From IMG/VR virus record IMGVR_UViG_3300027763_000102, positions 1 through 41,763 of that record: a stretch of DNA of 41,763 nucleotides; one strand, written 5' to 3'. The first letter of the stretch is position 1, and each line of letters begins with the position of its first letter. The position numbers were made by a program, and so were the translations under genes. The DNA is from a virus. Under the pieces are notes generated by a model, which ran no database searches, had not been told where the DNA came from, and saw only the letters and a program-made list of their open reading frames with translations. Below are positions 8,107-40,489 of the stretch, one piece after another.

Positions 8107-10992
8107 ATGGCACAAAGTGGATACACACCAATTTTGATTTACGCAAGCGGCACTGCTTCAGCAGTTCCTTTAGCGGCAAATATGACAAGCAGTGCATCTG
8201 GCGCTGAGTTGGCATTGAACTATGTTGACGGCAAGTTGTATTACAAAAACAGTGCTGGTGTTGTGACGCTGTTAGCTGGCTCTGGTGGTGGTGGCCCTGC
8301 CGCTGGTTCTAATACTCAGATCCAGTTCAATAACGGCGGTGTGTTTGGTGCTTCATCTTCATTGACATGGGATGGCACTTATCTGACCGCAGGAAGCATT
8401 AAGGATAGCGCACTGACTTCAGGCCGTGTGACTTACGCCACAACAAGTGGCTTGCTGACTGACTCTGCCAATCTTTTGTACTCTGGTACTGACCTGACTG
8501 TTTATGGCATCACAGTAGGCCGTGGTGCGGGTGCTGTGTCTACCAATACTGCGGTGGGTGCTAGTGCTTTGGCGGCTAATACAAGCGCAACCAATACTGT
8601 CGCTATTGGTAATTCAGCCCTTCCTGTTAATACAACTGGTATTGATAATACTGCGGTTGGTTCGCAAGCCATGTTCTTAAACACAACAGGGCAGAACAAT
8701 ACGGCTACTGGTCGTCAAGCCTTGTACACCAACTCATCAGGTGGGAACAATACAGCGTTTGGATATGGCGCACTTATTTCCAATTCGACAGCATCTTACA
8801 ATACCGCTGTAGGTTATCAGGCGGGGTATAGCAATACTACAGCCGCAGAAAATGTTTTTGTTGGTACTCAATCTGGTTATGCAAACCAAACAGGTATTGG
8901 CTTAACACTTGTTGGTCATTTGGCTGGTACAAATAATACAGGAAGTGATAACACTGCTTTGGGTTTTGCCGCTTTGCGTAGCAATACTTCTGGTGCAAGT
9001 AACGTAGCAGTTGGTGGTGGAATTGGTGCGGCAACAAATGGTGCGTTAGGAAGCAATACAACAGGTTCATTTAACACTGCAGTAGGTAAGCAATCTCTTT
9101 TCTCCAACACCACAGCATCTAACAATACTGCTGTAGGTTACAGAGCAGGATACACAAATACCACTGGCGCTTACAACACTTTTGTTGGTGGTATAGATGT
9201 TATTTATGGTGGTGCGGCTGGATACTCAAATACAACAGGCTCTTACAACACAGCTTTGGGTAATGGCGCTTTATTGAGTAACACTACCGCCAATGACAAT
9301 GTTTCAGTTGGTTATCAGTCAATGACTTTTAACACAACTGGCGCGTCCAATGTGGCTCTTGGTAGGCAAGCGCTTTACTCAAACACCACAGCTTCTAACA
9401 ACACTGCTGTTGGGTATCAGGCAATGTACACGGGGACTACCGCCTCAAATAACACTGCCTTTGGATACCAAGCCGCATATTCAAATAGTTCTGGCGGTGC
9501 GCTTACAGCTATTGGCTATCTTGCTGGGCATGAAAATACAACAGGCAACTACAACACATCTCTTGGTTCAAATGCTTTATATGCAACTACAACTGGTTCA
9601 AGCAATACAGCGATTGGACAGGCCGCGCTCCAAGCCAACACCACAGCATCTAACAACACTGCTGTAGGTTATACAGCTCTTTATTCAAATACCACAGGCA
9701 CAGTCAACAACGCTTTTGGTCAAGCGGCACTGTATTCAAATACAACTGGTGGAGGAAACACCGCTATTGGTAATGCGGCTTTGTATTCAAATGTAAGTAA
9801 CTCAAATAATGTGGCAGTTGGACAACAAGCATTAGCTAATGCAACAGCAAATAACAATACTGCTGTAGGTTATCAAGCACTTCAGAACAACACCACAGCA
9901 TCTAATAACACTGCTGTCGGTCAATTATCAATGGCTAACAACACCACTGGCGCATCAAATGTTGCTGTGGGTCAAGGTGCGTTGTACACAAACACAACTG
10001 GTGGTAACAATACTGCTATTGGTCTATCAGCACTCGTTGCAAACACCACAGCAACAAATAATACTGGTGTTGGGGCACAAGCATTAGCGGCGACTACAAC
10101 TGGTGATTTAAATGCCGCAGTTGGTGCTTATGCTCTAGCAAATAATACATCTGGCGTTCGCTCAGTAGCAATGGGTGTTAACACAATGTTCGGCAACACC
10201 ACAGGTTCTTACAATACGGCTCTTGGTTATTATGCTCTTGGTAGCAACACCACAGCATCAATCAACACTGCTGTAGGTTATCAGGCGGCTTATGCAAATA
10301 CAACTGGAGCTCTTGATGCTTTTGGCGCAAACGCTCTTTCATCAAACACAACGGGCAACTACAGCAAAGCGTTTGGAGAGTCGGCTCTTTTAAGTAACAC
10401 CACGGGAGACTCCAACTGTGCGTTTGGCGGCTCTGCAATGAGGGCAAACACAACTGGTGCACAAAATTCTGCTTTTGGTGAAAGCGCATTAAGATATAAC
10501 ACAACTGGTGGGTATAACACTGTTATTGGCGCAAACTCTGGCGACCAAATTACTACTGGTTCTAGAAACTCAATCCTTGGACGTTACAACGGCAACCAAA
10601 ATGGCATAGACATTCGCACAGCAAGTAATGTTATTGTGCTGTCTGATGGAGATGGAAATATCCCAGTTTTGTGGGACAGCAGTAAAACAGCAACTTTGTA
10701 TGCTAATCCGGGTAGCCCACAATTTTCTAACACACAAGCTGTTACGCTGGCAAATGGCGCAACCGTGGACTACGCCGCATTTTCTGGATTCCTTATTGTC
10801 AATAATTGGAACCAAGGTGGCGTTGGAGTATGGATTTGCGGAGCTGGTGCTGTTACGTTGATTTCTACCGTGTCTGGTGGTTATGGAAGTTTGGCTTATA
10901 ACTCCGGTGTAAATGGCTATACATGGACGGCAACTGTCGGTTCAACTGCGGCATACACATTTACAGCGATTCGTACTCGTGGTAATGCATAA
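8107..10992 (+). CDS. Long tail fibre with YadA-like head repeats
   Basis: 961 residues. The N-terminal ~150 residues form an attachment part. Residues about 155-830 are a run of ~14-residue repeats of the type NNTAVGYQALYSNTTG, the pattern of the trimeric autotransporter (YadA) head, which folds as a left-handed parallel beta roll. The C-terminal ~130 residues (from about YNTVIGANSGDQ onward) are non-repetitive, with hydrophobic GVWICGAGAVTLIS strands, and probably form the receptor-binding tip. AAGGA lies upstream of the ATG. It stands between the first fibre and its probable chaperone at 11002. The long, near-identical DNA repeats could support length change. Confidence 0.8.
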   Translation: MAQSGYTPILIYASGTASAVPLAANMTSSASGAELALNYVDGKLYYKNSAGVVTLLAGSGGGGPAAGSNTQIQFNNGGVFGASSSLTWDGTYLTAGSIKDSALTSGRVTYATTSGLLTDSANLLYSGTDLTVYGITVGRGAGAVSTNTAVGASALAANTSATNTVAIGNSALPVNTTGIDNTAVGSQAMFLNTTGQNNTATGRQALYTNSSGGNNTAFGYGALISNSTASYNTAVGYQAGYSNTTAAENVFVGTQSGYANQTGIGLTLVGHLAGTNNTGSDNTALGFAALRSNTSGASNVAVGGGIGAATNGALGSNTTGSFNTAVGKQSLFSNTTASNNTAVGYRAGYTNTTGAYNTFVGGIDVIYGGAAGYSNTTGSYNTALGNGALLSNTTANDNVSVGYQSMTFNTTGASNVALGRQALYSNTTASNNTAVGYQAMYTGTTASNNTAFGYQAAYSNSSGGALTAIGYLAGHENTTGNYNTSLGSNALYATTTGSSNTAIGQAALQANTTASNNTAVGYTALYSNTTGTVNNAFGQAALYSNTTGGGNTAIGNAALYSNVSNSNNVAVGQQALANATANNNTAVGYQALQNNTTASNNTAVGQLSMANNTTGASNVAVGQGALYTNTTGGNNTAIGLSALVANTTATNNTGVGAQALAATTTGDLNAAVGAYALANNTSGVRSVAMGVNTMFGNTTGSYNTALGYYALGSNTTASINTAVGYQAAYANTTGALDAFGANALSSNTTGNYSKAFGESALLSNTTGDSNCAFGGSAMRANTTGAQNSAFGESALRYNTTGGYNTVIGANSGDQITTGSRNSILGRYNGNQNGIDIRTASNVIVLSDGDGNIPVLWDSSKTATLYANPGSPQFSNTQAVTLANGATVDYAAFSGFLIVNNWNQGGVGVWICGAGAVTLISTVSGGYGSLAYNSGVNGYTWTATVGSTAAYTFTAIRTRGNA

Positions 10993-15776: not shown

Positions 15777-17794
15777 TGACCGCAAAAGTCGTCAACCTAC
15801 AAGTTGGGCCGGGCATACAGCGTGACGGAACGCAGTTTGCGGCAGTAACTTATGTAGACGGTAAGTGGGTTCGGTTTCAATACGCCCTACCTCGTAAGAT
15901 TGGTGGTTATAACGGATCGTTCCTAAACGCAACTGGAGTCAGTCGCGGAATGATCATGAGTTCTCAGGATGGCCTTAACTACGTAGTCTCTGGCTACAAC
16001 AACGGTATTGAGCAGTGGACGACTGATAACGATAACGCAGTAGGATTTGGCCCAACCCCAATTGAGCCTGCTGGATCTGTATCAACAATTGGCATTACTA
16101 ACCAAGGCTCTGCGTACTCCAACGGCACATATACAAATGTACCAATCATCACAACCGCTGGCACTGGGTGCTTAGTCACTGTAACGGTGTCTAGCAACTT
16201 GGTGTTTAGTGTGGTGGTCACTAACGGAGGTGTGAACTACGTACACAATGCTACAGTGACTATTGCGGCGGCAAATATTGGTGGTACAGGATCAGGTTTT
16301 GTTGGATTTATCGACAACTTATCGACTTACGCACCAAACGAAAATACGCTGTGGCAATTTGACATAGGTTACGATGCATTGGGTAATGGTCAAAATAATT
16401 TGATTGCCCACCCCGGTCAAAACTTAAACGATATCTCATCGTCCGTAAACACTAGGCCTTTGTTTGGCCCCTTTACAGGCACCACATTGAGCCCTGTAGG
16501 CATTTTTACGGCAACTGGCACCCGAACCTCAGGTTCACCCACTGTAACGTTTGCAACCACCAATGTGTCGATTGGAGCGGGTGTTTCGGTTTCGGGCACT
16601 GGTATCCCTTCAGGCACCACAGTGTTGTCAGCTTTAGAGGTGGCTGGGGTATGGACTGCCACACTAAGTGCAAACGCTAGTTCTTCGGGAACTTCTCTTT
16701 TAACTTTTGACAACAACATCTCTGTGTCTGGTGGCATTGTGATGTTGTTTCCGTACTTGTTTGCTTATGGCAACAACGGCCTTATTTCAAACTGTGCGGC
16801 GGGTGACTTTAGCAATTGGGTATCTGCCGACTCAAACGCCAACAACGTCTCTTCTACAAAAGTAGTAAAGGGAATGCCTTTGCGTGGTGGTACAACATCG
16901 CCTGCTGGACTGTTTTGGACTTTGGACTCTGTGGTGCGTGTAACTTATGCGCCCACCACAGTAGGAAATCAAACGTTCTATTGGAAGTACGACCTGATCA
17001 CTCAGCAGTCATCGATCTTGTCGAGTCAATGCGTGATTGAGTATGACGGCATCTTTTATTGGTGCGGTACTGATCGCTTCTTAGCATACAACGGTGTTGT
17101 GCAAGAGATCGAGAATAAACAGAACAACAATTACTTTTTTGACAACTTGAACTATGCACAGCGCCAAAAGGTATGGGTGAGTAAAGTTCCTCGTTGGGGT
17201 GAGATTTGGTGGTTTTTCCCTAAGGGGGATAGTACAGAATGCAACGACGCCATCATTTATAACGTGCGTGAAAAGTGTTGGTATGATTCAGGGACGGCAT
17301 TAGGTGCTCGTCGCTCTGCGGGGGTGTTTTCCGAGGTCTTTCGTCGTCCAATTTGGGCGGGTAACGAGGTCAATACGGCGGGAAAATACACTTTGTGGCA
17401 ACACGAGACGGGCACAAACGTTGTATACACAAACAACGTAGACGCAATTGAGTCATTCTTTGAGACAAACGTAATTGGCTCTCGCGCAGGCTTGGTGGGC
17501 TCGATAGAACAGCCCGGCGACAACGTGTGGACTCGCATTGAGAGAATTGAGCCTGACTTTGTGCAAAACGGCGCCATGGATGTGATCATCACTGGTAAGT
17601 CATACGCTGAAGATATTGATGATCCATCGACTCCTTATGTATTTGATGCTGACACCCTCAAAATTGACATGAAAGAGCAAAGACGCGAGATGCGTTTGAG
17701 GTTTACCAGCAACACGCAAAATGGAAATTACTTCATGGGACGTATTGTCTTGAGCATAGACACTGGCGATGTTCGCGGAAATGGAAACCCATGA
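15776..17794 (+). CDS. Tail nozzle / packaged-DNA stabilisation protein (P22 gp10-like)
   Basis: 672 residues. The N-terminus VVNLQVGPGIQRDGTQFA and the blocks YVDGKWVRFQ, LPRKIGG, CNDAIIYNVREKCWYDSG and VPRWGEIWWFFPKG match beta-propeller nozzle proteins (P22 gp10, SU10 nozzle), which seal the tail tube. Two segments look inserted: about 95-180, with a VVTNGGVNYVHNATVTI motif known from many virion proteins, and about 240-312 (SGSPTVTFATTN... SGTGIPSGTTV), a diverged copy of the module in the proteins at 769 and 14340. Length is well above that of the bare nozzle for this reason. Start and stop overlap neighbours. Confidence 0.75.
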   Translation: MTAKVVNLQVGPGIQRDGTQFAAVTYVDGKWVRFQYALPRKIGGYNGSFLNATGVSRGMIMSSQDGLNYVVSGYNNGIEQWTTDNDNAVGFGPTPIEPAGSVSTIGITNQGSAYSNGTYTNVPIITTAGTGCLVTVTVSSNLVFSVVVTNGGVNYVHNATVTIAAANIGGTGSGFVGFIDNLSTYAPNENTLWQFDIGYDALGNGQNNLIAHPGQNLNDISSSVNTRPLFGPFTGTTLSPVGIFTATGTRTSGSPTVTFATTNVSIGAGVSVSGTGIPSGTTVLSALEVAGVWTATLSANASSSGTSLLTFDNNISVSGGIVMLFPYLFAYGNNGLISNCAAGDFSNWVSADSNANNVSSTKVVKGMPLRGGTTSPAGLFWTLDSVVRVTYAPTTVGNQTFYWKYDLITQQSSILSSQCVIEYDGIFYWCGTDRFLAYNGVVQEIENKQNNNYFFDNLNYAQRQKVWVSKVPRWGEIWWFFPKGDSTECNDAIIYNVREKCWYDSGTALGARRSAGVFSEVFRRPIWAGNEVNTAGKYTLWQHETGTNVVYTNNVDAIESFFETNVIGSRAGLVGSIEQPGDNVWTRIERIEPDFVQNGAMDVIITGKSYAEDIDDPSTPYVFDADTLKIDMKEQRREMRLRFTSNTQNGNYFMGRIVLSIDTGDVRGNGNP

Positions 17795-29817: not shown

Positions 29818-30477
29818 TCAGAAGGGAATGTCATCAAAACTCTCGTCTTCCATCATTGGCGCTTCATGCTTTTTGACGGGTTCTGGAGTAGAGGTTTTTT
29901 TGCCTTGGCGCTTTTCCCATTCTGGTGACGCCGAAATCTTGGCCTTCAAGTGGTCGCTAAACTTATTGAACATTTCCATGTCAGGATCGTCAATCTTGAA
30001 TAACTCATTTAGATTGACCGCCTCAGGCAAGCCGTTCTGTTTGATCATGGCAGGCACTGGAGTGACGCCAGCAACATTGGTGTATGTTTTGCCGTCTTGG
30101 CCGGGGCGCTCAATCACGTTCAACATGCAGAATGCGCCAAGGACATTCTTCAGGTCAAACTTGCGCATCTCTTCCTGAGTGAAGGGCTTACCGCGCCATG
30201 ACTGCAAATCAAGACGCAAATTTGCTTTTTCTGACCATGAGAGAGTATAGTTTTTGAAGATTCCGAATGGGCGTCCATCGTTCATTTTGATGGCAGAGCC
30301 GTCGTCATGCATACCGTGGATTTCCCAACCGAGCATAATCTTGTGGAGGTACTTGACTTGACCCATGTACTCAGACTTCTGAGTGCCAAGATCAACGATT
30401 CGGTAGCACCGTGCAAGGTGCATACCCGCGGGGCAACGCTCGAAATTACCGCCCCTATCTTCTACATAAAAACTCAT
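29818..30477 (-). CDS. Phage ssDNA-binding-like replication protein
   Basis: 219 residues from the ATG at 30477 (AAAGGAAAAATC upstream); a much longer in-frame start would run through the divergent promoter and the repressor gene and is rejected. Conserved blocks PAGMHLARCYRIVDLGTQ, RPFGIFKNYTLSWSEKANLR and DLQSWRGKPFTQEEM mark a widespread early phage family annotated as replication or ssDNA-binding protein. The C-terminus MMEDESFDDIPF copies the acidic tip of bacterial SSB, which docks partner proteins. It is the first gene of the leftward operon and is probably made early and in quantity. Confidence 0.75.
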   Translation of the reverse strand: MSFYVEDRGGNFERCPAGMHLARCYRIVDLGTQKSEYMGQVKYLHKIMLGWEIHGMHDDGSAIKMNDGRPFGIFKNYTLSWSEKANLRLDLQSWRGKPFTQEEMRKFDLKNVLGAFCMLNVIERPGQDGKTYTNVAGVTPVPAMIKQNGLPEAVNLNELFKIDDPDMEMFNKFSDHLKAKISASPEWEKRQGKKTSTPEPVKKHEAPMMEDESFDDIPF

Positions 30478-30515: not shown

Positions 30516-30556
30516 CGTTCATCGTGAACGTGTGAAGACTATAACACGAAATTAGA
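30516..30556 (-). promoter_or_regulatory. Leftward early promoter with operator and 5' hairpin
   Basis: Read on the minus strand: TCTAATTTCGTGTTATAGT (30556-30538) contains an extended -10 (TGT-TATAGT). Six bases later comes an A at 30531, the likely transcription start, then a stem CGTTC-ACGAT-GAACG (30530-30516) and GG. It serves the gene at 29818. The element matches those at 35081, 36995 and 40273. The -35 is weak, so activity may rest on the extended -10. Confidence 0.75.
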
Positions 30557-30570
30557 TATTGTGTTAGACT
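30552..30570 (+). promoter_or_regulatory. Rightward promoter/operator of the repressor gene
   Basis: TTAGATATTGTGTTAGACT keeps the right half (GTGTTAGA) and the extended -10 (TGT-TAGACT) of the shared 19-nt element but not its left half, and it overlaps the divergent site. No 5' hairpin follows; the leader goes straight into AAAGGAGG and the ATG at 30593. This is the expected layout for an autoregulated repressor. Confidence 0.65.
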
Positions 30571-30592: not shown

Positions 30593-30793
30593 ATGAACCT
30601 AAAACAATACTTTAAGGATGAACCGTATGGCGCAAAAAAGGAGATGGCAGAACATCTCGGCATCACACAAACATGGCTTGGACTCTTAATTAGAAAGGCA
30701 CGAAGACCGTCACCTGAATTAGCAAAAAAAATAGATAAAGCCACACAAGGCTTAGTAAGTGCAAAAGAACTGCGACCCGATATTTTTAACTGA
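30593..30793 (+). CDS. YdaS/Cro-like HTH repressor
   Basis: 66 residues. The start at 30593 follows AAAGGAGG; an upstream in-frame start would read the ribosome binding site. The pattern LKQYFKDEPYGAKKEMAEHL, then LGITQTWLGLLIRKARRPSP and ELAKKIDKATQGLVSAKELR, is that of YdaS-type Cro proteins: a helix-turn-helix at about 16-38 and the RRPSPELA block. It would bind DNA as a dimer. It lies beside overlapping divergent promoters and is the best candidate for the protein that reads the 19-nt operator found four times in the window. Confidence 0.85.
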   Translation: MNLKQYFKDEPYGAKKEMAEHLGITQTWLGLLIRKARRPSPELAKKIDKATQGLVSAKELRPDIFN

Positions 30794-30823: not shown

Positions 30824-31639
30824 ATGAGAAAAATAGCTTTGAATGACATTCGTATCGATGGTGGTACACAAATCCGTAAGGAGATCGATCAAGCATTGAT
30901 TTATCAATATCTTGATTGCATGAAAAGGGGCGACGTTTTTCCAAAAATCAAGACCACATTTGATGGAGCAACGTATTGGCTAAACTCTGGCTTTCATCGT
31001 TACCATGCCTACAAATTGTTGGGCGTTAAGATGGTTGAGGTGGATTTTGAGATCGGCACCCTACAGGACGCTATCCTTGCGGCTTTGAAGTCCAATACTA
31101 AACACGGAAAAAACCTGACTATTGAAGACAAAGAAAACAAAGTCAAAATAGCTTTAGCTCTTGATGGCTACGACCAAAAAACGGATTACGAGCTATCCAA
31201 AATATGCGACGTGTCAGAGTCCTTTGTAGCTGGTGTACGCGATCCAGCTAAAAAGGAAAAGCAAAAGGCCGCCAAAGAGAAGCACATCAAGAAGAAAGCC
31301 AAGGAACTTACTGAAGCCGATGCTTCAAAAACTACTAGTCAGACTAGTAGTGAAAAAGCAACACCAAGGGAAACCCCTAACTTAAATGTTGGTGCTAATC
31401 CAGATGCCGCTGAATTGAGGGCTAACGAAATAGCATTTCAAGCTGACATGGAAGTCATGTACAAACTCTTGGAATCTAATGAGCCCTTGAAGTTGGCCCA
31501 CGAGGAAATCAAGCGCCTTAACCTTGCTTATGCTCAACTTGATACACGTTTTAAAGGCTTAACAAATGAAAAAAATCAGGCAATAAAAATGGTCAAGCAA
31601 CTTCAAAATCAACTTGATAAATTGAAAGCCAAAAAATGA
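30824..31639 (+). CDS. ParB-like N-terminal domain protein with coiled-coil tail
   Basis: 271 residues. The N-terminal ~90 residues follow the ParB/sulfiredoxin pattern: an LNDIRIDGGTQIR start, then LNSGFHRYHAYKLLG (53-67), the counterpart of the G-x-HR-x-x-A box. A helical region with a possible HTH (ELSKICDVSESFVAGVRDP) follows, then a very basic stretch, a linker encoding TSQTS, and a C-terminal coiled coil (about 200-271). It probably binds DNA in replication, regulation or segregation. Remarkably, the linker DNA is a copy of the 15-bp palindrome found elsewhere. Its stop overlaps the helicase start. Confidence 0.75.
   Translation: MRKIALNDIRIDGGTQIRKEIDQALIYQYLDCMKRGDVFPKIKTTFDGATYWLNSGFHRYHAYKLLGVKMVEVDFEIGTLQDAILAALKSNTKHGKNLTIEDKENKVKIALALDGYDQKTDYELSKICDVSESFVAGVRDPAKKEKQKAAKEKHIKKKAKELTEADASKTTSQTSSEKATPRETPNLNVGANPDAAELRANEIAFQADMEVMYKLLESNEPLKLAHEEIKRLNLAYAQLDTRFKGLTNEKNQAIKMVKQLQNQLDKLKAKK
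31331..31351. repeat. 15-bp palindrome copy 3 (21 bp of pairing) inside the ParB-like gene
   Basis: ACTACTAGTC-A-GACTAGTAGT, an inverted repeat of 10 bp per arm around one base. The central 15 bases are identical to the copies at 22987 and 23044. It encodes the TSQTS linker of the ParB-like protein. Confidence 0.85.
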
Positions 31640-34623: not shown

Positions 34624-34653
34624 TTGACACGTCTTGAGACGTCTTGATACAAT
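34624..34653 (+). promoter_or_regulatory. Strong sigma70-type promoter with operator in the spacer
   Basis: TTGACA (34624-34629), an 18-base spacer, and TACAAT (34648-34653) preceded by TGA as an extended -10. The spacer contains ACGTCTTGA twice, ten bases apart (34629, 34639), and the inverted repeat ACGTCT-TG-AGACGT (34629-34642). The predicted start is near A34660. It drives the ncRNA that follows. The repeats suggest a bound repressor or activator. Confidence 0.8.
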
Positions 34654-34659
34654 TCTAGC

Positions 34660-34779
34660 AAATGCAAGCGGGTGGAACTTCTTGCAAGAAAGCCGTTAAG
34701 TCAGACTCCGACCCCTTTGGGGTGCGTGTCCTTCAAAAGAGGATATGGTTCCACCGGGGTCTGTCTTAACGGTTTTTTT
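34660..34779 (+). ncRNA. Predicted ~120-nt structured RNA with pseudoknot and terminator
   Basis: From the predicted start to a T7 run there is no credible coding frame. Four pairings are visible. TGCAAG (34663-34668) pairs with CTTGCA (34681-34686). GGTGGAAC (34671-34678) pairs with GTTCCACC (34748-34755). CCGTTAAGTCAGAC (34693-34706) pairs with GTCTGTCTTAACGG (34759-34772), with one T-T mismatch. ACCCC (34711-34715) pairs with GGGGT (34719-34723). The second and third interleave, so they form a pseudoknot or loop-loop contact. Seven T residues end the unit. It may be a regulatory RNA or a replication-related transcript. I recognise no known RNA family. Confidence 0.7.
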
Positions 34780-35070
34780 CGTTTTACTTCCCGTACTCCG
34801 CACGATAGCAAGCACCCCAGTCGTGGTGGCGCGGAAGGAAAGCGTACACGGTATGCCGTAAGGCTAGGGGGCAGTTCCCGAATAATCCGTGCGACTGGTC
34901 GAATCATCAAGTCGGGGGCAGAACTAACGTTCGCATGATGATCCTGCATTGACAGGGGTGAAGCACCTTCCCTCTCTACTCCTTGAATGGGGTAGGGGGG
35001 TCTTTGGGTGAAAGGAATGATAGGGCGAAAAAGGGGGGTCGGGAAATTTTGGGTCATGTCCCTTTTTTTT
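34780..35070. other. Noncoding region with short inverted repeats and G-runs
   Basis: No convincing gene on either strand; the two overlapping open frames here have compositions typical of non-coding DNA. It contains possible stems: CGCACG/CGTGCG (34799-34804 with 34888-34893), ACGG-TATG-CCGT (34848-34859), CGACT/AGTCG (34892-34914), and CTACTCC/GGGGTAG (34976-34995). From 34989 to 35053 there are seven runs of three to six G. I found no tRNA cloverleaf. A second structured RNA or part of an origin is possible. Confidence 0.5.
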
Positions 35071-35080
35071 GTTTGCAAAC

Positions 35081-35120
35081 TCTAATTTTGTGTTAGACTG
35101 TGTTCACCACAATAAGTGGG
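35081..35120 (+). promoter_or_regulatory. Early promoter/operator with 5' hairpin (copy at 35081)
   Basis: TCTAATTTTGTGTTAGACT (35081-35099) contains the inverted halves TCTAAT/GTTAGA and an extended -10 (TGT-TAGACT). Six bases later A35106 is the likely start, followed by the stem CCAC-AATAA-GTGG (35107-35119) and GGTTAAC. TTTGCA 16 bases upstream of the -10 may be the -35. It serves the gene at 35138. Confidence 0.8.
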
Positions 35121-35137: not shown

Positions 35138-35323
35138 ATGAATATGTTCGATGATTTTGAGGCTGAGTTGCTAAAGCAATTCAAAGCCATCACTCCAGAA
35201 CAGCGTGCTGAGGAAGACCGTCTTCGCAAGATTCAGCGCGAATGGGATGCCAAGCACACTGCGATTGAAACTGATGCAGATCGCGCTGACACTGAAGAGT
35301 ATCCAGTGGAGGACGACGAATGA
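35138..35323 (+). CDS. Small acidic early protein
   Basis: 61 residues from the ATG at 35138 (AAGGAGAATGAA upstream); a longer frame from 35069 would run through the promoter and is rejected. Helical and strongly acidic (FDDFEAELLKQFKAITPEQR, then an Asp/Glu-rich end). It is the first gene behind the operator-hairpin leader, so it is probably expressed at once after infection. Its stop overlaps the next start by four bases. Function unknown; acidic early proteins often target host factors, but nothing specific is visible. Confidence 0.65.
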   Translation: MNMFDDFEAELLKQFKAITPEQRAEEDRLRKIQREWDAKHTAIETDADRADTEEYPVEDDE

Positions 35324-36927: not shown

Positions 36928-36994
36928 TTTGTATTCAAAACAGTATTAGGGTTTGTCCTAATAAAAATAAATGAAAAAAGACTTCACAAAAGAA

Positions 36995-37035
36995 TCTAAC
37001 TTCGTGTTAGAATTCTTTCACCGCAACGTTAGCGG
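36995..37035 (+). promoter_or_regulatory. Early promoter/operator with 5' hairpin (copy at 36995)
   Basis: TCTAACTTCGTGTTAGAAT (36995-37013) has perfect inverted halves TCTAAC/GTTAGA and an extended -10 (TGT-TAGAAT). TTCACA 19 bases upstream may be a weak -35. Six bases after the -10 comes A37020, then the stem CCGC-AACGTTA-GCGG (37021-37035) and GGTTTAAC. It serves the gene at 37058. Confidence 0.85.
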
Positions 37036-37057: not shown

Positions 37058-37375
37058 ATGACAACAGTAGCAACAGAAGTTCAAGCAGTAGCAACAGTCG
37101 AGTCACTGCTTAACCCCATCGACCAACTCTCTGTGTTGGATCGTCAACAAAAAGGTTTGGCTGTTCAAGTCAAGAACCTCAAAGACACTATCGCCAACAC
37201 ATACGGCGAAGGCAAGCACCGCGGCGAGAAGTACGGTGTTCGCGTAACCATCGAGAACCGCAAGGGCTCCATCGACTTAGATGCTTTGTTGGCTCACTTC
37301 GGTATCACTGCCGAGCAAGCAGAGCAGTTCCGTGGCGACTCTATCGCTGTGATTAAAGTTTCAGCAACTGTTTAA
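37058..37375 (+). CDS. Small early phage protein (YGEGKHRGEKYGV family)
   Basis: 105 residues from the ATG at 37058 (AAAGGAAATCATC upstream); an upstream frame would read the promoter. The N-terminal ~50 residues are helical; NTYGEGKHRGEKYGVRVTIE is a conserved block seen in many phage early proteins of unknown role, followed by LLAHFGITAEQAEQF. First gene after the operator-hairpin leader. Confidence 0.65.
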   Translation: MTTVATEVQAVATVESLLNPIDQLSVLDRQQKGLAVQVKNLKDTIANTYGEGKHRGEKYGVRVTIENRKGSIDLDALLAHFGITAEQAEQFRGDSIAVIKVSATV

Positions 37376-40260: not shown

Positions 40261-40311
40261 TTGACTACACAATCTAACTTTGTGTTAGAATTACTTCACT
40301 GCAATAAGCAG
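40261..40311 (+). promoter_or_regulatory. Early promoter/operator with 5' hairpin (copy at 40273)
   Basis: TTGACT (40261-40266), 19 bases, then TAGAAT (40286-40291) inside the element TCTAACTTTGTGTTAGAAT (40273-40291) with perfect TCTAAC/GTTAGA halves. Six bases after the -10 comes A40298, then the stem CTGC-AATAA-GCAG (40299-40311) and GTTTATT. It serves the gene at 40331 and has the best -35 of the set. Confidence 0.85.
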
Positions 40312-40330: not shown

Positions 40331-40489
40331 ATGACTTTATTTGCTTTAGAAGAACACTTGATGATGTTGTTGGTCGAGGACAAGTTGTGTTTTGAAGAGG
40401 GCGATTGGGATCGCTTAGAAAGAATTCGTTTGGCCATCGACGACACAAGAGACCAAATCGCCAAACTGCAAAAAAGGGTAAACAAATGA
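40331..40489 (+). CDS. Small helical early protein (52 aa)
   Basis: Read directly: MTLFALEEHLMMLLVEDKLC, then FEEGDWDRLERIRLAIDDTR and DQIAKLQKRVNK. An amphipathic helical hairpin with a coiled-coil end. TAGGAGATCAAA precedes the ATG, and it lies directly behind the operator-hairpin leader. The stop overlaps the next start by four bases. Function unknown. Confidence 0.65.
   Translation: MTLFALEEHLMMLLVEDKLCFEEGDWDRLERIRLAIDDTRDQIAKLQKRVNK

Follow-up and report, generated by a model that had tools for sequence, protein, structure and literature searches.

The locus raises the question of whether a short element, repeated in front of several early genes on both strands, places these genes under the control of one protein, and what else is carried along with it. 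An earlier note on the window (here the whole stretch of 41,763 nucleotides that was analysed) had described four near-identical 19-nt copies of such an element, in which operator and promoter are fused.

The repeated element in the early region

All four elements are present, on the plus strand at 35081-35099, 36995-37013 and 40273-40291, and on the minus strand, where the copy at 30538-30556 (TCTAATTTCGTGTTATAGT) belongs to the leftward unit. The three plus-strand copies showed no mismatch to TCTAAYTTYGTGTTAGAMT and the minus-strand copy showed two. Dinucleotide shuffles of the window contained 0.10 matches on average and never reached four, and the reversed (backwards) pattern had no match in the window. 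The elements are confined to 30.5-40.3 kb of the 41.8-kb virus record. Their right half was confirmed to read as an extended -10 (TG-T-TAGAAT, TAGACT or TATAGT), the hexamer being TAGACT at 35094-35099, TAGAAT at both 37008-37013 and 40286-40291, and TATAGT in the minus-strand copy; the 40273 copy also has TTGACT at 19-nt spacing from its -10. The dyad TCTAAY-N5-GTTAGA attributed to all of them is complete (6+6) in three copies, whereas the minus-strand copy is imperfect, with GTTATA on its right side. As had been stated, the elements precede the first genes of units. The leftward unit begins with a gene for a 219-aa protein of phrog_862, to which no function is assigned (29818-30477, minus strand), and the three plus-strand units with genes for proteins of 61 aa (35138-35323), 105 aa (37058-37375) and 52 aa (40331-40489), none of them placed in a family.

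A leader hairpin attached to the element

Alignment of the four window copies by their -10 revealed an A 7 nt past the hexamer, followed by a short hairpin. This A preceding the stem is likely to be the transcription start, so that the predicted +1 lies at 35106 (hairpin CCAC-AATAA-GTGG, 35106-35119), 37020 (CCGC-AACGTTA-GCGG, 37020-37035) and 40298 (CTGC-AATAA-GCAG, 40298-40311) on the plus strand, and at 30531 for the leftward unit (CGTTCA-CGA-TGAACG, 30516-30531, minus strand). In the window, a hairpin of 4-6 bp starting at the predicted +2 follows every copy except the repressor gene's own, and the stems are compensatory variants (CUGC/GCAG, CCGC/GCGG, CCAC/GUGG and CGUUCA/UGAACG). In the three plus-strand leaders the hairpin is succeeded by GGTTTA or GGTTAA, a Shine-Dalgarno sequence and the ATG, and in the minus-strand leader a second hairpin lies ahead of the ribosome-binding site. 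As far as can be read from the DNA, the conserved unit is a promoter-operator-leader cassette that reaches, via the 5'-terminal hairpin, to the start codon. A sequence-plus-structure model detected exactly four cassettes in the window at 50-60 bits (53.9, 60.3 and 56.7 bits for the copies at 35081, 36995 and 40273, and 49.8 bits for the minus-strand copy), and orthologues of the 105-aa protein in other phages retain the cassette. A generic sigma-70 scan of the window was discarded; it returned promoters no commoner than in shuffles and missed the three plus-strand cassettes, partly because of their 19-nt spacing.

The arrangement is kept in related copies. In 156 of 157 of these the hairpin starts about 7-9 nt past the -10, corresponding to +2 or +3, and in L145 and L148, where the -10 is likely shifted (GATACT), it was seen by inspection at the same distance from the -10. 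Loops measure 3-8 nt, and the loop start AAY and the trailing GGTTTA recur in most copies. By inspection, stem type tends to follow the position of the unit, with CCAC at the first rightward unit, CGGTC-like stems at the leftward one and CTGC or CCGC further right.

The window stems are short, three of the four having -5 to -6 kcal/mol, and single leaders were not clearly more stable than shuffles in folding energy (z only -0.65 to -1.48); covariation was therefore used as evidence for the hairpin. Among 50 diverse copies, three of the four pairs change on both sides (59 of 200 cells vs. 16.6 in shuffles), and pairing reached 100% as against at most 53% with the partner slid, a percentage inflated by the regular-expression selection of this set for a stem. 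The clean set for pairing consists of 27 orthologues of the gene at 37058 which, except for the window's own copy, were selected by protein similarity; here 97% of the cells are paired, with 12 both-side changes vs. 4.7, the variation coming mainly from one pair (UA/CG). In two orthologues of this gene (L163 and L164) the stem is replaced by an unrelated 8-bp stem.

A palindrome just past +1 might also act as DNA, either as a second operator or as a pause or terminator element, as an inverted repeat beside an operator could suggest. We consider this highly improbable: the stem sequences differ within one and the same genome and would thus offer no common DNA site to a single protein, their spacing is locked to the -10, compensatory changes maintain the pairing, and no U-run follows the hairpin. 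The fixed position, the recurring loop start and the trailing GGTTTA on both strands could also be those of a binding site for an RNA-binding protein, i.e. a translational regulator or a put/nut-like antitermination factor, which would coordinate the early units after initiation. Such a site is doubtful, though not far-fetched, as the stem sequence is free to change and loop length varies over the range given above, the L163 and L164 orthologues manage with their unrelated stem, and the hairpin is single and short, not of the two-stem put type, with no Rfam match. A search of the window at the Rfam gathering score gave 0 matches, and a known RNA family was likewise rejected at a relaxed threshold in the intergenic region before 35081.

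As it is mainly pairing and position that are conserved, the hairpin most likely serves 5'-end protection combined with an open ribosome-binding site. The stem lies within a few nucleotides of the predicted 5' end and its pairing is conserved, as in protective 5'-terminal stem-loops; 5' structure blocks RppH and RNase E, whose action requires an unpaired 5' end (PMC3997798). Some units can do without the hairpin, since the operator is kept and the leader hairpin absent in L012, L015 and L046, a natural hairpin-minus variant with the same downstream gene (MRLMTEEETEI..) as L009.

The candidate reader of the operator

A helix-turn-helix (HTH) protein of 66 aa encoded at 30593-30793 (plus strand) is the candidate repressor for all five sites. 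It matched Pfam YdaS_toxin (E=2.9e-11, 43.5 bits vs. a cut-off of 30), phrog_35 transcriptional repressor (E=5e-12) and the PDB Cro chains 8co2/8c7k (E about 3e-5), and its assignment to the YdaS/Cro family on these matches is firm. The fifth half-site that had been noticed before this gene proved to be a degenerate second operator/-10, TTAGATATTGTGTTAGACT, at 30552-30570 (plus strand), with no leader hairpin. It overlaps and diverges from the minus-strand site at 30538-30556, and the repressor gene and the leftward unit thus have back-to-back promoters. Relatives such as L026, L028, L062 and L108 have a complete site here. The palindromic sites over the repressor's own and the divergent promoter of the window are kept in relatives, most of which have overlapping, divergent sites next to the HTH gene. 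In the window this gene is 4.5 kb and 6.4 kb away from the first and second rightward cassettes.

Because the right half is explained by the extended -10, only the left half can testify for an operator. The left half occupies the promoter spacer, a stretch in which sigma-70 has no requirement for this sequence. A collection blind to it, in which copies were picked by -10 skeleton, hairpin and ribosome-binding site, comprised 177 copies vs. 17 in reversed sequence, and in the 135 copies that are not exact pattern matches A4 and A5 are conserved at >90%, T1 at 86%, T3 at 82% and C2 at 73%. An independent scan with the leader only gave 53 distinct matches, of which 52 have an operator NN[TAC]AAY at fixed spacing and 46 have T[CT]TAAY at the fixed place, indicating that operator and hairpin travel together.

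The operator also appears to change with the protein. Phages with the recognition helix WLGLL have TCTAAY or TCAAAY operators, and those with WLS/WIS (L126, L128, L130 and L134) have TTTAAY or TTAAAT; in L126 and L127 the repressor promoter has GTTAAA as the right half, a change matching that of the left half, and in L135 and L136, whose HTH protein is 48-49% identical, a different palindrome (ATACAC..GTGTAT) stands at the repressor promoter. Operator base 2 would thus track the recognition helix, as expected of a direct repressor-operator pair, in a comparison of few lineages in which ancestry is a confounder. Dyad symmetry is weakened by a frequent shift of the right half towards the -10 consensus (of the 177 copies, 72 have T16 and 83 have G16). 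Covariation between dyad bases 2 and 16 is weak in the mixed alignment and was not relied on as operator evidence.

These observations bear on the possibility that the element is merely a duplicated strong host sigma-70 promoter read by no repressor, its dyad being a by-product of an extended -10 and a conserved spacer. TGnTATAAT accounts for the entire right half, many copies better the -10 at the dyad's expense (TATAGT), and a TTG stands 19 nt before the -10 in 39 of the 83 CT-type copies. Such an origin is nevertheless very unlikely, given that, in copies selected blind to it, the spacer-located left half almost equals the -10 in conservation, that the HTH gene is bordered by the same half-sites on the two strands, that the half-site co-changes with the HTH recognition helix and that the element is absent from host genomes.

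A further palindrome, TAGGG(n4-6)C[CA]CTA, was found upstream of 55 of 157 related copies, most of them CTGC or CCGC units (of 28 CCAC units, 1 has it), its distances clustering near -45, -55 and -65. These steps of roughly 10 bp suggest a protein bound on one face of the DNA. Within the window it occurs at 36947-36960 only (plus strand; TAGGGTTTGTCCTA, centred about -66), followed by an A/T-rich tract, and in relatives it recurs ahead of units of the same kind. A second regulator may therefore act at some early units via this palindrome. The regulon reading of the earlier note was in this sense incomplete, as the unit also includes a covarying RNA hairpin and, in some copies, this palindrome further upstream. 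With probably more than one regulator at work, and with other DNA-binding candidates nearby such as the ParB-like protein at 30824, the 19-nt operator itself could be read by another protein, be it a second phage regulator or a host factor. This is quite unlikely: 84,980 bacterial and archaeal species genomes held no sites beyond chance, the sites lie directly around the HTH gene as in lambdoid immunity regions, and it is the HTH helix that base 2 tracks. The YdaS/Cro-like protein remains our candidate reader.

The earlier note had held that absence of the element from the same places in close relatives would speak against a regulon. The comparison was made and the element survived it, as 33 of the 34 related records contain 1-6 copies each, at orthologous genes and at the divergent promoters of the repressor gene; the reversed pattern had no match in these 34 records. 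Searching 2.9 million viral contigs for exact matches gave 61 stretches, the majority with the whole cassette and about ten of them chance matches without it. The HTH protein is encoded in 20 of 25 site-bearing contigs, and in the five without its gene the contig end at which the gene would be expected is 2 bp to 4.8 kb away from the outermost site. The only close phage relative found in GenBank, MW202545.1, a circular 57,457-bp siphovirus from Manatee Spring, has an HTH gene of 83% identity, five sites and four full cassettes. Together with the conservation of the left half and its co-change with the recognition helix, the occurrence in relatives supports reading the element as the mark of a phage-wide early regulon.

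A prophage or host origin of the element was rejected. The 84,980 genomes contained 31 pattern matches, located in AT-rich, mostly Bacteroidetes or Clostridia contigs, none with the leader and none scoring above 29.6 bits vs. 47-60 for phage cassettes. Being leaderless, these are chance matches, and the element belongs to phages.

A proposed shut-off of the early programme

We consider it probable that a Cro-like autorepressor shuts all early promoters by occlusion, while the hairpin protects or presents the 5' ends of the early mRNAs. At infection all early promoters would be free for host sigma-70 polymerase, which would initiate early transcription at an extended -10 (TGnTAGAAT or TATAGT) preceded by a weak TTG -35 at a distance of about 19 nt. 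Among the genes transcribed would be that of the repressor, its mRNA lacking the leader hairpin. Dimers of the 66-aa protein would occupy the 17-bp dyad TCTAAY-N5-GTTAGA, in which the -10 doubles as the right half, and with sufficient accumulation would keep polymerase off all early promoters, including that of the repressor gene, so that the early units of both strands would be shut off together by negative feedback. Except for that of the repressor, early mRNAs would begin with A(+1), a hairpin from +2, usually GGUUUA and the ribosome-binding site; the hairpin would keep the 5' end from RppH and RNase E, and the ribosome-binding site would be set in an open A/U-rich stretch.

As the same switch heads each early block, a single protein can probably dampen all early transcription at once. 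The annotation of the complete relative MW202545 lists neither an integrase nor a CI-type repressor, so the system may be a lytic early shut-off and not a lysogeny switch. Beyond this, the leader hairpins could form a genome-wide regulatory RNA tag of interchangeable 5' stems read by one factor, which would make regulon switching two-level. We hold this to be unlikely; the factor could come from the phage, as an RNA-binding or antitermination protein, or be a host ribosome or RNase in modified form.

The proposed autorepression sketches, in a form open to testing, the early regulatory circuit of a group of freshwater phages for which metagenomes are almost the sole source, with one 66-aa protein predicted as the early shut-off switch and exact start sites predicted for its targets. 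The cassette further shows that one heritable unit can combine a promoter, an operator and a covarying 5' RNA hairpin, and more than 150 matched natural leaders are at hand for asking how little 5' structure protects an mRNA.

Repressors with scattered operators are also known from phiC31. In Cluster A mycobacteriophages (L5, Bxb1) one repressor has many cognate sites throughout the genome, whose consensus diverges with the repressor (PMC6550527), and the phages studied here appear to be alike in these respects. The Cluster A stoperators, however, are asymmetric, number 20-30 per genome, lie mostly off promoters and block elongation (PMC6550527), in contrast to the up to six dyad sites per genome found here, each fused to a -10; the element is accordingly not a stoperator. 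The YdaS of the lambdoid prophage CP-933P has experimental support as a Cro analogue and recognizes palindromes that cover two divergent promoters (PMC8630535). It shares with the present protein, as does the Cro of SfV-type phages, the protein family and a divergent intergenic region with palindrome-covered promoters. Unlike CP-933P, which has four 18-bp palindromes at one immunity region, a PL-like site and the CI analogue PaaR2 (PMC8630535), the present phage has single sites spread over five promoters, with a leader hairpin attached, and neither a CI nor an integrase is annotated in MW202545.

Repeated start-associated cassettes, to which no function was assigned, are also found in Cluster K mycobacteriophages (PMC3203893; PMC12699233). 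Like the cassette described here, SAS/ESAS form a gene-linked inverted-repeat cassette upstream of a subset of non-structural genes and are absent from the host (PMC3203893). SAS, however, has an invariant 13-bp sequence and sits at the start codon, and ESAS consists of two 17-bp repeats with a subcluster-specific consensus (PMC3203893), whereas here the downstream hairpin keeps its pairing only and the upstream dyad overlaps a recognizable -10. The 13-bp SAS, GGGATAGGAGCCC, was not found in the cassette leaders, which read hairpin-GGTTTA-Shine-Dalgarno. The 5' stem-loops of ompA and papA resemble the leader hairpin in their extreme 5' position and in hindering RppH and RNase E (PMC3997798), but belong to single host leaders, unlike the minimal 4-6 bp hairpin reused at early units and inherited with the operator. 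A repressor with many operators is thus already known, and it is the coupled, covarying 5'-terminal hairpin that appears new; in the open-access papers searched, no description was found of an operator-promoter inherited with a 5'-terminal hairpin of variable sequence and conserved pairing.

Other RNA features were observed in the window and its relatives. The intergenic region 34624-34785 of the window contains a consensus promoter (TTGACA-18-TACAAT with TG) and then a putative small RNA with a long stem (CCGTTAAGTCAGACTCC / GGGTCTGTCTTAACGG) and a T-run at its end. At the matching place in L115 and L109 the Rfam Betaproteobacteria-1 RNA (RF02932) was found; the window copy is below detection for this family, including in a relaxed-threshold Rfam search. 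Outside the window, the repressor-gene leader of L105 (about 9910-9990) contains a structured RNA consisting of P1 (GGGG..CCCC), AAAGCGGAT, P2 (GCTG..CAG) and GYAGCGAGTA, with both helices covarying and no match to an Rfam family. The repressor-gene leaders of L104, L109, L110, L115, L121, L124, L047 and L050 have the same type of RNA, which stands in tandem in L238 and L243, and a pattern scan found it in at least 120 viral stretches, with 83 copies among the matches listed, often before genes. Judging by its pattern and covariation, it looks like an undescribed and very widespread phage RNA motif. L105 also has a match to the Rfam int-alpA RNA (RF02996) at 16343-16410.
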